NCBI RefSeq assembly: GCF_014651235.1
Contig: NZ_BMWM01000011.1
Span: 1-52,707 of the forward strand
Source of the DNA: Leuconostoc lactis KCTC 3528 = DSM 20202
Lineage (GTDB): Bacteria; Bacillota; Bacilli; Lactobacillales; Lactobacillaceae
DNA: 52,707 nucleotides
Reading direction: 5' to 3'
The notes under the pieces were generated by a model, which searched no databases, had not been told where the DNA came from, and saw only the letters and a list, made by a program, of their open reading frames with translations. Position numbers and translations under genes: made by a program. Every line of letters begins with the position of its first letter. Within the stretch, counting starts at the first letter, position 1. Positions 32,270 to 52,611 of this stretch are shown here, in pieces.

Positions 32270-33355
32270 TTAAAACAAGGTCATTTCTTCAAAACCGCTT
32301 GGCTGTAAATTACTCATTGACAGTCCTAATAAACGAATGGCATACGGGCCTGTTACCACCTCATCAAAAATCGCTTGAGCTGTATTCACCAAGAGGTCTT
32401 CAGCAAGCAACCAAGGTTCTACCTGTGTGATTGCCCGGGTTGTGGTATGGAATTTTTCATCCCGAATTTTAACATTTAACGTCCGGCCAACCAACCCACG
32501 AGCCTTCAAAGCCGCAATCATACCACTCGCTAACTTTTTAAATTCGGCACGTACCAGTTCATCATGGTGTAAAAACTGCGCAAAAGTTTCCTCTTTACCC
32601 ACTGATTGCTGTTGGCGTTGCCACTTGACTTCACCAAAATGGACGCCACGCGCCTGCCAATAAAGATTTTCACCCAACTTACCAAACTGCGCCACTAACG
32701 TTTCGCGTGATAGTTGCCGTAACGTGGCACCATCAAGTACATTAAGGGCTGCTAACTTAGCTTGCGTTTTCTCACCGACCCCGCGAAATTCACCAATCGG
32801 TAAATGATCTAAAAAAGCCAGGCGGTTTTCCGGCGTAATCACCGTCACGCCGTTTGGCTTATTAAATTCAGATCCCAACTTCGCTAATAGTTTGTTATAC
32901 GATACGCCCACCGAACTAGTTAATCGTGTTTGTTTATAGATGTCATGCCGTAACTGTGCGGCCAGCATTGCGCCTGACAACGCATTGTCGGTCACATCTA
33001 AGTAAGCCTCATCATACGCCACCGGCTCAATTTTTGGCGTAATTGTCCGAAAAACGGCATGAATTTGCTTAGAAATGGCTTTATATTTGGCAAAATCAGG
33101 GGTCAGAAAGATCCCGTCTGGCGCTAAACGCCGCGCTTCTGCGGATCGCATGGCCGAATGAATGCCAAGTTGGCGCGCGACATAGTTCGCCGTCGTCACC
33201 ACCCCACGACCCCCAGTTTCTGCTGGATCACGCGAAATAATTAATGGCTGGTGGCGTAATGCCGGATTGTCACGCATCTCGACTTGGGCATAGAAGGCAT
33301 CGATATCAACATGGAGAATTTTACGTGTATCAGTTGTCAATAAAAACTCTGTCAT
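32270..33355 (-). CDS. dinB: DNA polymerase IV
   Basis: Y-family translesion polymerase. Visible: HVDIDAFYAQVEMRDNP (first catalytic Asp), YDEAYLDVT (catalytic Asp/Glu), SVGVSYNKLLAKLGSEFNKPNGVTVI, the helix-hairpin-helix region LPIGEFRGVGEKTQAKL, and the little-finger domain ending in LGLSMSNLQ. 361 aa is normal. A perfect Gram-positive LexA box lies 22 bases upstream of the start, so it should be SOS-induced. Confidence 0.96.
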   Translation of the reverse strand: MTEFLLTTDTRKILHVDIDAFYAQVEMRDNPALRHQPLIISRDPAETGGRGVVTTANYVARQLGIHSAMRSAEARRLAPDGIFLTPDFAKYKAISKQIHAVFRTITPKIEPVAYDEAYLDVTDNALSGAMLAAQLRHDIYKQTRLTSSVGVSYNKLLAKLGSEFNKPNGVTVITPENRLAFLDHLPIGEFRGVGEKTQAKLAALNVLDGATLRQLSRETLVAQFGKLGENLYWQARGVHFGEVKWQRQQQSVGKEETFAQFLHHDELVRAEFKKLASGMIAALKARGLVGRTLNVKIRDEKFHTTTRAITQVEPWLLAEDLLVNTAQAIFDEVVTGPYAIRLLGLSMSNLQPSGFEEMTLF

Positions 33356-33411: not shown

Positions 33412-33543
33412 TAAAAAAACCCCTGACCGAAGAGGGCAATGGTCAGGGGATGATAACTGTAGCTATCGATTTATCAATCAGTAATTGGGGGGCTGATTGA
33501 AACATTACTAGGGGAGTAATGAAACTCAAATATCTTTGAGTAT
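33412..33543 (-). ncRNA. Candidate small regulatory RNA with C-rich loops
   Basis: Minus-strand transcription unit of about 130 nt with no coding frame. A -10 TATAAT lies at 33555-33550 (weak -35). In transcript order the structures are: stem ACTCAAA/TTTGAGT (33541-33524); stem CATTACT/AGTAATG (33521-33503) with loop CCCCT; 8-bp stem TCAATCAG/CTGATTGA (33500-33474) with loop containing CCCCCC; terminator stem CCCCTGACC/GGTCAGGGG (33449-33420) with loop ATTGCCCTCTTC and a T7 tail (33419-33413). C-rich loops that can pair with Shine-Dalgarno sequences are typical of Gram-positive trans-acting sRNAs (RsaE/RoxS, LhrC). I know of no named family matching this one. It ends just before the dinB LexA region. 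Confidence 0.65.
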
Positions 33544-33549
33544 ATTTTT

Positions 33550-33555
33550 ATTATA
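33550..33555 (-). promoter_or_regulatory. -10 element of the candidate sRNA
   Basis: TATAAT, about seven bases before the inferred 5' end. Upstream at the -35 position is TATGCA; TTGTGA and an ATGC/GCAT repeat are further up and could bind a regulator. Confidence 0.5.
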
Positions 33556-33684
33556 TACCTTCATGCGATTTTTGCATATATCACAACTTTTGCTATTATA
33601 TTACGCCTCTATGACAAGTCCATATCCCATATTATTTTCCCGTGTCCCAAAAAATCCGGTGGAATTGCCGGTATTTTAATATAA

Positions 33685-33708
33685 AAAAGACACCTCACGG
33701 TGTCTTTT
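33685..33708 (-). terminator. Terminator of rplS
   Basis: AAAAGACACC / GGTGTCTTTT with a four-base loop, seven bases after the rplS stop. Confidence 0.92.
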
Positions 33709-33714
33709 CTCGGA

Positions 33715-34074
33715 TTATACGTCGCGACGACGTTCCTTGATACGTGCTGCCTTACCTTGCAAAGCGCGGAGGTAGTACAACTTGGCACGACGAACGGCAC
33801 CATAGCGTACAACTTCAATCTTATCAACACGTGGTGAGTGCAATGGGAACGTACGTTCCACACCAACACCAGATGAGATCTTACGCACTGTGTAAGTTGC
33901 TTGAATACCAGCACCCTTACGCTTGATAACAACACCTTCGAACAATTGGATACGTTCACGTGAACCTTCGACGATCTTAGCGTACACTTTAACAGTGTCA
34001 CCAGCGCGGAAGTCAGGGATGTCAGAACGCAATTGTACTGATGTAACGTTTTCTAAAATACTGTTTTGACGCAT
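33715..34074 (-). CDS. rplS: 50S ribosomal protein L19
   Basis: 119-aa protein at the 30S-50S interface. Family features: [60 protein letters not shown] and the C-terminal [17 protein letters not shown]. Stand-alone here with its own promoter, leader and terminator; rimM-trmD and rpsP are tens of kilobases away. Confidence 0.97.
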
Positions 34075-48423: not shown

Positions 48424-49305
48424 TTATTTTTTTATGATCTGGCCATCGACTTGACGGATAACTTGCATATCATGAACTGAGATATACCCTAGCTTTGGCA
48501 CCAAAGTTTTTTGTATTTTTTCTGATGATAAATAATCCAAGAACTTGGCGACCTGCTTAGATGGGTTCCCCTTCGTATACACGTGCTCATACGACCAAAT
48601 CGGATAGCGACCAGTGATGACATTGCTGTTAGTTGGCTTGACATGGTTAATTGTCGGTGCCACAACAGTATTGTTGATGTACCCAAAGGCTGCATAAGAG
48701 ATAGCGCCAGGTGTTGTCGCAACAATTGACCGCACCATACCAGATGAATCTTGTTCTTGCGCTGAAGTACTCTTATCGCCCATCAAACCAAACTTTTCAA
48801 AGGTTGCCCGTGTCCCTGAGCCCGCTGCACGATTGATAATCACAATTGGCAAATCATGCCCACCGACTTGACGCCAGTTCTTGACTTTACCTGTGAAAAT
48901 CTCACGTAGTTGCTGGGTGCTCAAGTTGGTCACCCCATTTTCTTTATTTAATAACGGTGTAATGCCGACAACAGCCACTTGATGATCGACTAGCTTAGTC
49001 GCATCAATTCCTGACTTTTCTTCGGCAAATACATCAGCGTTTCCTAAATCAACCGCGCCTTGTGCAACTTGACTTAGACCGGTACCCGTACCGCCACCCT
49101 GCACATTGACAAATGTTCCAAGATTAGCTTTCGTGTACTCTTCTCCGGCAGCTTCTACCAATGGTTGTAAGGCCGTTGAACCGACAGCCGTGATTGATGT
49201 GCCTGATGCACTTTTATCACGTGTAATGTAACCTGCGCCAATGGCCGCAATAAGACCCACGATGACGACTGTTGATACAATCATCCCGCGATGTGATTTC
49301 GACAT
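48424..49305 (-). CDS. pstS: Phosphate-binding protein PstS (copy 1, operon-linked)
   Basis: Extracellular phosphate receptor for the importer. N-terminal hydrophobic helix (about 9-27) but no lipobox Cys, so it is anchored by the helix or released. Phosphate-binding pieces: AVGSTALQPL, GGGTGTGLSQVAQGAVDLGNADVFAEE, NRAAGSGTRATFEKF and GAISYAAFGY. ATG at 49305 (293 aa) chosen because GGGAGG precedes it. It lies directly after a PHO box. Confidence 0.94.
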   Translation of the reverse strand: MSKSHRGMIVSTVVIVGLIAAIGAGYITRDKSASGTSITAVGSTALQPLVEAAGEEYTKANLGTFVNVQGGGTGTGLSQVAQGAVDLGNADVFAEEKSGIDATKLVDHQVAVVGITPLLNKENGVTNLSTQQLREIFTGKVKNWRQVGGHDLPIVIINRAAGSGTRATFEKFGLMGDKSTSAQEQDSSGMVRSIVATTPGAISYAAFGYINNTVVAPTINHVKPTNSNVITGRYPIWSYEHVYTKGNPSKQVAKFLDYLSSEKIQKTLVPKLGYISVHDMQVIRQVDGQIIKK

Positions 49306-49353
49306 GTTGATGCCTCCCAAGATTTAACTACAATAACTACTACTCTCCTATTA

Positions 49354-49403
49354 TCTTAAAGTTTTGTAAATGTCATCGCGGGTGAATGTAAAGATTGTGT
49401 CAA
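49354..49403 (-). promoter_or_regulatory. PHO box upstream of pstS1
   Basis: On the minus strand TTGACA (49403-49398), TTTACA (49392-49387), a degenerate unit, TTTACA (49370-49365) and TTAAGA (49359-49354) all lie in an 11-bp register. This is the layout of PhoP-binding TTNACA direct repeats. The region lies between the phoR stop and pstS1. Confidence 0.8.
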
Positions 49404-49410
49404 GAAATAT

Positions 49411-50766
49411 TTACAAAGGTAACGTCACACTGATTGTTGTGCCCACCGCAACTTGTGATTGTACTTTAATTTCACCATTGTGCTTATTAACAATTTCATT
49501 AACAATGGCTAAGCCTAAGCCTGTGCCACTAGCAATTTTGCGTTGTCGTGATTCATCCCCACGATAAAAACGTTCAAAAATTCGGGATTGTTGATTCGTC
49601 GGAATCCCGATGCCCGTATCTTTAACATTTAACTGCCAATGCTGATGATCCTTGTAAGCCGTCACGTGAATGTCCCCACCTTGGACGTTATATTTCACTG
49701 CATTAACAATCAAGTTTTGTAAAATCATTTCCACGTCTGTTTTGAGACCACGAATGATAAAATCATCAGGCACGTCATTGCGCAATTGCACGGCTTTAGT
49801 CTCCGCCAATGGCATCACATGCTGCCATTGTTCGGCCACCATATCATGAATCACTAACTCCGTCTGTACAGCCTCTCGCTTTTGTTGCACACGTGATAAT
49901 GAGAGAATATCATTGACCAATGACGATAGCCGTTTGGCTTCCTGCGCCACAATAGCCAAAAACATCTCCCGCGTGGCTTGATCTGCGCCGGCCGGTCCTT
50001 GTAATGTTTCGATAAAACCCGTAATCGCCGTTAGCGGTGTTTTTAGCTCATGAGACGCATTCGCCAAAAAGTCAGACTGCATCCGCTCAACTTGTAAGAC
50101 CGATGTTAAGTCATAAATAATGATCATGACTTCCGCATGTTTCAGATTACCTTGATGATACAAAGTGCTAACTTCGTACTGTTTCATATCGCCATTAATT
50201 TGTAAATTCAAAATCGATTGTTGATTTTTTTGCGTATTAAACGTTTGGGTAATCAGCTCAGAGAGCGTGAACTGTCGAATCACCATACTTTCGGCAATCG
50301 GCGTTTCAGGGCGTTGAATGCCCAACAGGTCAGCCGCCGTTTCATTAAACACATCAATGGTATGGGCGCGATTAATATTAATCACCCCAACTGGTAAACT
50401 CGCTAGCAATGAACGATAGTTCGTCACATCACGTTGTGCAGTTTGACGTGCTTGTTCGATCTGATGTTGCATCACATTAAATTGCTTGATCAAGGCGTAA
50501 TAAGGCGATCCTGGTTCTGCCAACACGCCTCTTGGGGTCTCACCAGCAACCGTATCGGCCATCCGTTTTTCCATCACTGTTAATTCTTGTTGTTGGCGAT
50601 TTTCCCAAAAATTAGCCCATAGTACAATGACAAAAGTTGCCAAAGTAATAATTAAAACAAGCAACAGCCACTGTCTTAAATGGAGCTGCAATAAACTACT
50701 CACGACGCCACAGAATACAAAATTGATAAACCAAAACGATAGAAATTTTAATATTTTTTTTGTCAT
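49411..50766 (-). CDS. phoR: Phosphate-regulon sensor histidine kinase PhoR
   Basis: Membrane sensor kinase: two N-terminal helices (about 9-27 and 32-53) with hardly any external loop, a PAS domain (about 115-225), phosphorylated His239 in NASHELKTPLTAITGF, then HATPase with NLIVNAVKYN, DTGIGIP and GTGLGLAIVNEIV. 451 aa. The short external part fits sensing through the Pst/PhoU complex. It is separated from phoP by pstS2 and an attenuator-like terminator. Confidence 0.93.
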   Translation of the reverse strand: MTKKILKFLSFWFINFVFCGVVSSLLQLHLRQWLLLVLIITLATFVIVLWANFWENRQQQELTVMEKRMADTVAGETPRGVLAEPGSPYYALIKQFNVMQHQIEQARQTAQRDVTNYRSLLASLPVGVININRAHTIDVFNETAADLLGIQRPETPIAESMVIRQFTLSELITQTFNTQKNQQSILNLQINGDMKQYEVSTLYHQGNLKHAEVMIIIYDLTSVLQVERMQSDFLANASHELKTPLTAITGFIETLQGPAGADQATREMFLAIVAQEAKRLSSLVNDILSLSRVQQKREAVQTELVIHDMVAEQWQHVMPLAETKAVQLRNDVPDDFIIRGLKTDVEMILQNLIVNAVKYNVQGGDIHVTAYKDHQHWQLNVKDTGIGIPTNQQSRIFERFYRGDESRQRKIASGTGLGLAIVNEIVNKHNGEIKVQSQVAVGTTISVTLPL

Positions 50767-50794
50767 TACCTTACTCCAATATCTCTATCATAAC

Positions 50795-50819
50795 AAAAAA
50801 GCCCGCTGACGCGGACTTT
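50795..50819 (-). terminator. Terminator between pstS2 and phoR
   Basis: AAGTCCGC / GCGGGCTT with loop GTCA and T6 on the minus strand; one G-T pair. Likely partial, letting some transcripts reach phoR, since no clear promoter for phoR was found. Confidence 0.8.
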
Positions 50820-50834
50820 GAAAAATGACTTAAA

Positions 50835-51743
50835 TTAGTTTTTTGTAACCTTACCTGACGCATCACGTGTGACTTTCATATCCGTCAAACCAATGTAACC
50901 CAGCTTTGGTACGATTGACTTTTGTACTTCCTTAGTTGTGAAGTAATCCAAGAATGCCTTAGTGGCACCTGTCGCGTCACCCTTTGTATACATATGTTCG
51001 TATGCCCAAATTGGCCATGAATTGTCTTCAACATTCTTTGTATCAGGCGTTACCTTATCAATGTTAAGTGCCTTGATACCAGAAGCATCCAAGTAAGCAA
51101 AGGCTAGGTATGAAATAGCCCCTGGTGTGGTTGACACAATCTTTTGAACTGTACCGTTAGAATCTTGCTCTGTTGCTTGAACAGCATTTTGACCATCCAA
51201 CACGTTCTTTTCAAAGACAGCACGTGTCCCTGAACCAGTCGCACGGTTAACCACAACGATCTTTTCGTCTTTACCGCCCACTTCTTTCCAGTTCGTAATC
51301 TTACCAGTGAAGATGTCACGCAATTGTGTCTTTGACAAATTTGACACTTGGACATCTGCGTTCACGACTGGTGCAATACCAACAACTGCGACTTTGTGAT
51401 CCTTCAACTTAGAAGCATCAACACCAGACTTTTCTTCAGCAAAGACGTCCGAGTTACCGATTTGTGCTGAGCCACTAGCAACTTGACTCAAACCAGCACC
51501 TGAACCACCACCTTGAACTGTCACTGTCACACCAGGATTTTTTTGTTGGAATGACGTTGCAACTTGTTCCGCTAATGGTTGCAAGGCCGTCGATCCCAAG
51601 GCAAGCACCTTACCACTGAGGTTAGAAGTGGCTGTTTTTTGTGTGGCCTGCTTGGTTGTGCTCTTATTTGAATTGGCATACAATGCCACACCTGCTGCGA
51701 TAACGACAACACCGCCGATAACACCGACAACTGCTTTGTTCAT
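50835..51743 (-). CDS. pstS: Phosphate-binding protein PstS (copy 2, between phoP and phoR)
   Basis: Second phosphate receptor (302 aa), clearly paralogous to copy 1: ALGSTALQPLAEQVATSF, GGGSGAGLSQVASGSAQIGNSDVFAEE, NRATGSGTRAVFEKN, GAISYLAFAY. N-terminal helix (about 5-23) then a Ser/Thr/Lys-rich spacer; no lipobox Cys. It is preceded by PHO-box-like repeats and followed by a terminator, so it can be strongly induced on its own. Confidence 0.94.
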   Translation of the reverse strand: MNKAVVGVIGGVVVIAAGVALYANSNKSTTKQATQKTATSNLSGKVLALGSTALQPLAEQVATSFQQKNPGVTVTVQGGGSGAGLSQVASGSAQIGNSDVFAEEKSGVDASKLKDHKVAVVGIAPVVNADVQVSNLSKTQLRDIFTGKITNWKEVGGKDEKIVVVNRATGSGTRAVFEKNVLDGQNAVQATEQDSNGTVQKIVSTTPGAISYLAFAYLDASGIKALNIDKVTPDTKNVEDNSWPIWAYEHMYTKGDATGATKAFLDYFTTKEVQKSIVPKLGYIGLTDMKVTRDASGKVTKN

Positions 51744-51879
51744 GAGTAATTCTCCCTTGTCTAAGGCTTCATTGAAGCGTATGTAGTGTAAACTTGGTTG
51801 TAGTAGTGGCTCTTGGGTGCCAGTCCTTGTTTACAAGTTATATACTACCGACGCTGTGTCAAAGAACTAGGCACAAACC

Positions 51880-51906
51880 TGTCATCGTTATGTAAATCAT
51901 TGTAAA
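51880..51906 (-). promoter_or_regulatory. PHO-box-like repeats upstream of pstS2
   Basis: On the minus strand TTTACA (51906-51901), TTTACA (51896-51891) and TGACA (51884-51880), about 10-11 bases apart. They abut the phoP stop. A TTGACA hexamer lies at 51862-51857. Confidence 0.6.
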
Positions 51907-51921
51907 GTCATCTTTACGCAG

Positions 51922-52611
51922 TTAGACCACCATCGTGTAGCCGAAACCACGAACCGTTTTTAGGAGCACCGGCGACTTCGGGTTGGCTTCAATTTTTTCC
52001 CGTAAATTACTAATATGCATGTCGACCATACGGCTTTCACCCGTGTATTCATAGCCCCAGACCGCCGTTAAAATCGTTTCACGATCAATGACCCGTCCAA
52101 TACGTTGGGCAAAATAGAGCAATAATTCATATTCTCGTGGCGTCAACGTCAAAATTTTATCAGCCTTAGTCACAACCTTTTTATTATCATCAATCACCAG
52201 ATCCTGAATCTTAATGACATCCGCTTCTTCAGAGACTTGATGATCAACTTGTGAACGACGTAATACCGCCTTTAAACGCGCGATAACTTCTCTTGGGCTA
52301 AACGGCTTAGTAATATAATCATCTGCTCCAAGTTCTAGACCAAACACCCGATCAAATTCATCCCCTTTAGCAGTGACCAAAATCACTGGAGTACTAATCT
52401 TATCTTGACGTAAGGTTTTCAAAACCGTCATGCCATCCATGCCTGGTAACATCAAATCTAGCAAAATAGCATCGAATTGCTGTTGACTGGCTAATTGATA
52501 AGCCGTCTGGCCATCTTCTGCCACTGTGACGTCATAATTATTCTCTTCCAGGTTATATTGCAATAACGTTGAAATTGCTGCTTCATCATCCACTACTAAA
52601 ATTTTTGTCAT
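51922..52611 (-). CDS. phoP: Phosphate-regulon response regulator PhoP
   Basis: OmpR-type regulator. Receiver domain with KILVVDDE (acidic pocket), phosphorylated Asp52 in ILLDLMLPGMDG, and Lys in VTAKGDE. The C-terminal winged helix has LTPREYELLLYFAQ, RVIDRETILTAVWGYEY and RMVDMHISNLREKIE, ending TVRGFGYTMVV. 229 aa is normal. Expected to bind the two PHO boxes downstream. GGGA lies very close to the ATG. Confidence 0.95.
   Translation of the reverse strand: MTKILVVDDEAAISTLLQYNLEENNYDVTVAEDGQTAYQLASQQQFDAILLDLMLPGMDGMTVLKTLRQDKISTPVILVTAKGDEFDRVFGLELGADDYITKPFSPREVIARLKAVLRRSQVDHQVSEEADVIKIQDLVIDDNKKVVTKADKILTLTPREYELLLYFAQRIGRVIDRETILTAVWGYEYTGESRMVDMHISNLREKIEANPKSPVLLKTVRGFGYTMVV

Follow-up and report, generated by a model that had tools for sequence, protein, structure and literature searches.

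A conserved gene for a small RNA with C-rich loops between rplS and dinB of Leuconostoc lactis, and its candidate control by a two-component system

C-rich trans-acting small RNAs (sRNAs) are a known kind in low-GC Gram-positive bacteria, and LhrC and RsaE are each present in Rfam. The streptococcal csRNAs, which are under the control of the OmpR-family regulator CiaR, have unpaired anti-Shine-Dalgarno stretches, and their box is a TTTAAG repeat. RsaE/RoxS, in which C-rich motifs are found as well, is regulated by SrrA/ResD. According to the accessible portions of PMC4132741, the LhrC1-5 RNAs of Listeria are 111–114 nt long and carry redundant UCCC motifs in their loops; the 5' side of a stem and the loop pair near the start codon, and a LisR-responsive region lies at about -53 to -75. 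In the part of PMC4409812 that is available, RsaE is described as the only sRNA besides 6S RNA that is common to S. aureus and B. subtilis. Trans-acting sRNAs common to several genera would seem to be rare in Firmicutes.

We analyzed a window of 52,707 nucleotides from L. lactis KCTC 3528 = DSM 20202 (contig NZ_BMWM01000011.1). Between rplS and dinB it contains a minus-strand unit, for which a preliminary description had noted a -10 element, a strong terminator and no coding frame. Both elements were confirmed at the positions given in Table 1. The strong terminator closes the unit ahead of dinB, its T run ending at 33413, and no reading frame is conserved among the copies compared: frame and peptide differ among species because the lengths of the C runs change. 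Three stem-loops and a terminator had been counted; hairpins and terminator were borne out, and the number was corrected to five including the terminator. The C-rich loops CCCCT, CCCCCC and GCCCTC are all present on the minus strand. Three of the five hairpins carry C blocks (H2, H3 and H5), with several UCCC or CU-rich motifs in their loops. The stretch of 144 nt, some 12 nt of which precede the predicted start, folds with -42.2 kcal/mol compared with a mean of -19.8 kcal/mol (sd 2.9) for 200 dinucleotide shuffles, none of which was as low (z = -7.7).

Table 1. Features of the sRNA locus and its flanks in the window.
Feature	Position	Strand	Description
rplS	33715–34074	minus	
rplS terminator	33683–33708	minus	own hairpin terminator, separate from the sRNA unit; read from sequence
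Four half-sites, 11-bp period	33578–33616 (about -73 to -35)	minus	OmpR/PhoB-family response-regulator-type box
Half-site TGTCAT	33616–33611	minus	
Half-site CGTAAT	33605–33600	minus	
Half-site AGCAAA	33594–33589	minus	
Half-site GTGATA	33583–33578	minus	
-10 element TATAAT	33550–33555	minus	TATAAT/TATACT in relatives
sRNA transcript	about 33413–33543	minus	~130 nt; both ends predicted, start ~7 nt past the -10
H1, 5' hairpin	33524–33541	minus	loop without C; from fold; covaries in Weissella (helix 1)
H2	33503–33521	minus	CAUUACU-CCCCU-AGUAAUG; from fold and alignments
H3	33474–33500	minus	loop CCCCCCAAUUA (C block CCCCCC); from fold and alignment A1
H4	33452–33467	minus	loop without C, stem variable with compensation; from fold and pair counts
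H5, intrinsic terminator	33413–33449 (stem 33449–33420)	minus	loop AUUGCCCUCUUC, then U7; from fold and terminator scan
dinB	32270–33355	minus	assigned by Pfam

None of the Rfam families attained its threshold in a search of the window. Nine sub-threshold matches (E up to 10; the best was TarA, whose 23.3 bits compare with a cut-off of 80) were dismissed as chance, and neither LhrC nor RsaE matched the window among the Rfam models at the gathering threshold or at E up to 10. In line with the initial statement, in which no such family was known for Leuconostocaceae, we found no description of this RNA in Leuconostoc or Weissella in the accessible text of the open-licence PMC literature; the 6S RNA of lactic acid bacteria, as presented in the available part of PMC8414754, is a different RNA. 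The sRNA is a family new to the catalogues searched, of a known kind: it has the terminator, the conserved fold, the unpaired C blocks and the lack of an ORF of the C-rich trans-acting sRNAs, together with a promoter read from the sequence.

The csRNAs are similar to this sRNA in its putative OmpR-family control and candidate anti-Shine-Dalgarno stretches, whereas box and fold differ. The likeness to RsaE/RoxS of Staphylococcus and Bacillus lies in the probable trans action, occurrence in more than one genus and C-rich motifs (accessible portions of PMC4132741), whereas fold and regulator are different. LhrC is the best functional analogue. By the same source it compares well in length (near ~130 nt), in the UCCC motifs of the loops, in the proposed involvement of a 5' arm together with its loop and in an upstream regulator region, which here is a generic box of the OmpR-family type; however, LhrC occurs in five copies with two stem-loops and a C-rich linker, and the sRNA described here has five hairpins and is present once in the window's genome. 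The preliminary description had referred to a design known from RsaE/RoxS and LhrC. The LhrC-like design stands, membership of either family by the Rfam search does not.

The sRNA gene was found in all 19 Leuconostoc genomes searched with a 191-base query (E 8e-28 or better). The window's own genome gave one real match, with two further ones at E 0.95 and 3.3. In all 19 rows of the resulting alignment A1 the 5' arm of H2 is retained together with a C block; the same holds for CCCCCAATT in H3 and for CCCTCTT in the loop of the terminator, and CCCCCAAUU of H3 is invariant. Within the family, the H2 5' arm and its C loop rank among the best conserved stretches. H4 and portions of H3 and H5 vary in a compensatory manner; in A1, double changes occur in 6 of 30 pairs within Leuconostoc. 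H1 is absent from the A1 consensus because one row is shifted. Conservation of stems and C-rich loops in relatives, on which the preliminary description had made the candidate depend, was thus observed in 19/19 Leuconostoc.

Model R1 was built from A1, model R2 from nine Weissella copies only (alignment A4). R1 matched 41 of 397 Lactobacillaceae genomes at E up to 0.1, many of them Weissella, and R2 matched 82 of 397 at E up to 0.01. Although it contains no Leuconostoc sequence, R2 recovered 19/19 Leuconostoc genomes (E 1.1e-5 to 1.4e-10 per genome), including a single match in the window's own genome (33413–33540, E 4.6e-8). The other matches belong to Weissella (23), the genera labeled g16 (24), g33 (7), g19 (4) and g12 (2), and, with one each, g8 (an L. 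fallax-like genome), g22 and g24; these are numbers of matching genomes, and the total sampled per genus is given for Leuconostoc alone (19). A 24th Weissella copy was matched by R1 alone (G071). The structure formed by the nine Weissella copies has 48 pairs, and 85.6% of its cells are paired. It comprises 65 double-changed cells, compared with 23.6 in shuffles, and 0 of 500 shuffles reached 65. Slid versions of the structure gave 14–21 such cells, a comparison in which the structure is favored because it was derived from those same sequences. Pair counts were taken from A1 and A4 alone; alignment A3 (both genera) misplaces H3 and H4, and A2 misplaces H2. Seven relatives fold with z-values of -6.7 to -10.4. 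The covariance search across both genera and the inspection for compensatory changes, which had been proposed at the outset, both turned out positive.

In Weissella, CCCC of H2 and CCCTCTT of the terminator loop are each present in 23/24 copies, and a run of at least four C at the position of the H3 loop in 19/24. Stems and C loops are retained in most of the 24 copies, with exceptions: three copies (L097, L117 and L118) have no run of at least four C in H3, and L118 has none in H2 either. Thirteen of the 24 copies (within L099–L115) carry an extra run of 4–7 C in the H3-H4 linker, possibly a fourth seed.

The g19 copies retain C blocks in H2, H3 and H5, and the L. fallax-like copy has CCCTCTC in its terminator loop. 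In the g16, g33 and g12 copies examined, C blocks are retained in H2 and H3 and the 3' part is different. Divergent copies from these three genera (L206, L207, L208, L210 and L211) show loops CUCCUCC or CUCCCCC and CCCCCAAU, and four of the seven g33 genomes contain two R2 matches each. The g24 match was not convincing on reading. Outside the Lactobacillaceae, R2 matched 13 of 295 genomes searched, five of them weakly (E 7e-4 to 5e-3). Two of these copies were examined: one (g69) has a loop with ACUCCC as well as a C-rich loop in its terminator, the other is little alike. In a separate scan of named genomes, R2 confirmed 20 of 29 pattern stretches, all 20 from Lactobacillaceae. Very probably the conserved sRNA family is real, with fold and C-rich loops largely retained in Leuconostoc and Weissella as well as in some more remote relatives; it may be wider than the first two genera.

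The neighborhood of the gene changes among genera. In Leuconostoc, rplS is located upstream in 17/19 loci and dinB downstream in 13/19; in the two loci without rplS upstream, a gntP permease gene is found there (G003 and G016). In Weissella the upstream gene is htrA in 24/24 loci, and in W. muntiaci the sRNA comes last in a series formed by walK, yycH, yycI, a gene of the MBL fold, which we take to be yycJ, and htrA. The best NCBIfam matches of the W. muntiaci walK piece and of htrA are WalK and HtrA, both below cut-off. A gntP gene also adjoins the sRNA in the L. fallax-like genome and in one of the four g19 genomes, so that such a permease stands beside it at L015, L016, L088 and L121; this is perhaps the ancestral location. 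As the neighbors change, the RNA is to be regarded as a stand-alone sRNA, probably trans-acting.

Upstream of the -10 element no good -35 element was observed at 16–18 bp in the window, and a simple promoter scan therefore does not report it. The best nearby minus-strand site of that scan, TGGACT-16-TATAAT (33622–33595, 10/12), overlaps the half-site box and would start a longer RNA with a 5' end near 33588; its -10 is not retained in most relatives. The repeats at 33616–33578 are an addition to the preliminary description. A pattern made of the first three half-sites occurs once per genome, at the sRNA, in 16/19 Leuconostoc and is absent from three, with 0 control matches. Because the pattern itself derives from these promoters, the information lies in its uniqueness and constant position. 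GTAA lies at a constant distance from H2 in 18/19 Leuconostoc. The box is found within one mismatch in 10/24 Weissella promoters and also in the L. fallax-like genome, while in the remaining 14/24 no clear box was recognized in this orientation. The four g19 copies have TTCAYA-type 11-bp repeats instead, which are exact at the sRNA in three. In one g19 genome (G128), TTCAYA-N5-TTCAYA is enriched (28 vs 7 in the control), in the other three it is not (2 vs 3, 1 vs 1 and 2 vs 1). Some of the G128 repeats (L214–L242) precede genes for exported proteins, the downstream genes being mixed, and the set suggests a response-regulator regulon. For the window's own genome, a regulon derived from a two-half-site box was discarded; with six matches, equal to the control, no regulon can be read from it.

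The box supports a regulator of the OmpR/PhoB family as judged from its sequence. The WalR consensus is TGTWAH-N5-TGTWAH and that of PhoB is similar (available part of PMC4168254). The half-sites of the sRNA, TGTMAT-N5-YGTAAY, nearly fit the former, and the PhoB/PhoP type fits alike. The position of the Weissella genes near walK and htrA somewhat favors WalR over PhoP. PhoP stays a candidate because the pst operon of the window has TTTACA-type coding-strand repeats that read TGTCAT-N5-TGTAAA on the other strand and resemble the sRNA box. On balance we lean towards WalR as the putative regulator, with PhoP next and a smaller share left to another regulator.

The phosphate operon (48424–52611) lies behind a gene for an OmpR-family regulator and contains two pstS genes flanking a histidine kinase gene, with TTTACA repeats ahead of each pstS. 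YycF/WalR and PhoB are among the best NCBIfam matches of the regulator gene, which stays below both cut-offs. The two pstS leaders (51838–51748 and 49347–49303, minus strand) contain complementary repeats, CTACTACA in pstS1 and AGTAGTAG in pstS2. Such repeats are also present in several pst leaders of Weissella, and in Leuconostoc the leader of pstS1 has a conserved stem of the GTAAACAAGG...TTGTTTAC type. An RNA-level coupling of the two leaders is possible. In the L. fallax-like genome (G025, L199–L201) the second pstS matches in pieces only, one with stop codons.

In order to identify potential targets, we searched for complements of the C blocks ahead of start codons. The exact complement of the H2 loop (GGGGAGTN{1,10}ATG) was not enriched, with 40 matches compared with 40 in the control; five of the 40 are the sRNA's own antisense. 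Thirty of the 40 were examined and 15 have an ORF of >40 aa, no two from different genomes being related. The H3 complement TTGGGGRN{3,12}ATG gave 368 matches vs 108 in the control (six genomes), a count that is confounded by Leu-Gly codons within genes. From this set we took 20 regions, picked by eye for their A/T-rich spacers among the matches listed, which end within G009, and 100 more regions, leaving out four G009 rows, L264 and L255. Filtering (ORF of 50 aa or more, in-frame stop no more than 120 nt away) yielded 33 ribosome-binding-site (RBS)-like and 28 internal-like cases. A strong hydrophobic stretch within the first 240 residues is encoded by 17/33 RBS-like genes compared with 36/121 in the baseline (one-sided p 0.018), a p-value that overstates the difference because five ortholog pairs inflate the count; after collapsing them the number is 14/28. 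Four of the pairs join G002 and G009 (presumably ftsH, a GDSL lipase, D-lactate dehydrogenase and a regulator) and one joins G001 and G009; shared descent alone keeps ribosome sites alike. For ftsH only AATTGAGG was found in the four other genomes where the gene was located, and ftsH was not found in the examined stretches of G005 and G011. A sixth pair connects L309 of the TTGGGGR set with L265 of a GGGGAGT set, presumably an efflux-adaptor-like protein. Judging from its C blocks, the RNA may pair with ribosome sites rich in G.

We consider it probable that the locus is a stand-alone gene for a trans-acting sRNA of ~130 nt, controlled by a two-component system and pairing through its C blocks with mRNAs. 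A real RNA that acts on a protein instead, for example by titrating an RNA-binding protein or an RNase, with the C blocks serving as protein sites, is improbable. Such a ligand would also keep the repeated C-rich loops and the over-conserved H2 arm, and the target scans gave no proven set; however, the sequences flanking the C blocks vary from genus to genus, and the design is reminiscent of LhrC with its UCCC seeds (accessible portions of PMC4132741).

It is very unlikely that the unit is a cis element, either the 3' UTR of rplS or the 5' leader of dinB. Both genes are on the strand of the sRNA, but rplS has its own terminator, the unit terminates before dinB, and other neighbors are found in 2/19 Leuconostoc and 24/24 Weissella loci. 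Still less probable is a small mRNA for a short peptide: the 20-codon ATG frame of the window copy has no visible ribosome site ahead of its ATG, and frame and peptide are not the same among species. Chance hairpins without function are hardly credible in view of the conservation (19/19 Leuconostoc, R2) and the covariation. The sRNA is very probably a gene regulator that pairs with messenger RNAs.

Based on these results we propose the following mechanism. The sRNA would be activated by a two-component system, for which envelope sensing of the WalRK type and the phosphate system PhoPR are the likeliest candidates. Through H2 (loop and 5' arm), H3 and H5 it would then bind Shine-Dalgarno regions rich in G on several mRNAs, and the pairing would either block ribosomes or make the mRNA accessible to RNases. 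The likeliest targets would be envelope and exported proteins. The RNA is present in 19/19 sampled Leuconostoc, in Weissella and in other Lactobacillaceae, yet it has no Rfam match. It offers a single-copy locus open to deletion, together with a candidate type of regulator and C-block seeds that can be tested. More tentatively, and somewhat on the unlikely side, it could be an ancestral envelope-stress sRNA of the Lactobacillaceae that depends on the essential WalRK (or on PhoPR) and globally damps translation of membrane and exported proteins via its three C-rich loops. If true, this envelope-stress sRNA would be a Gram-positive counterpart of the enterobacterial sigma-E sRNAs.
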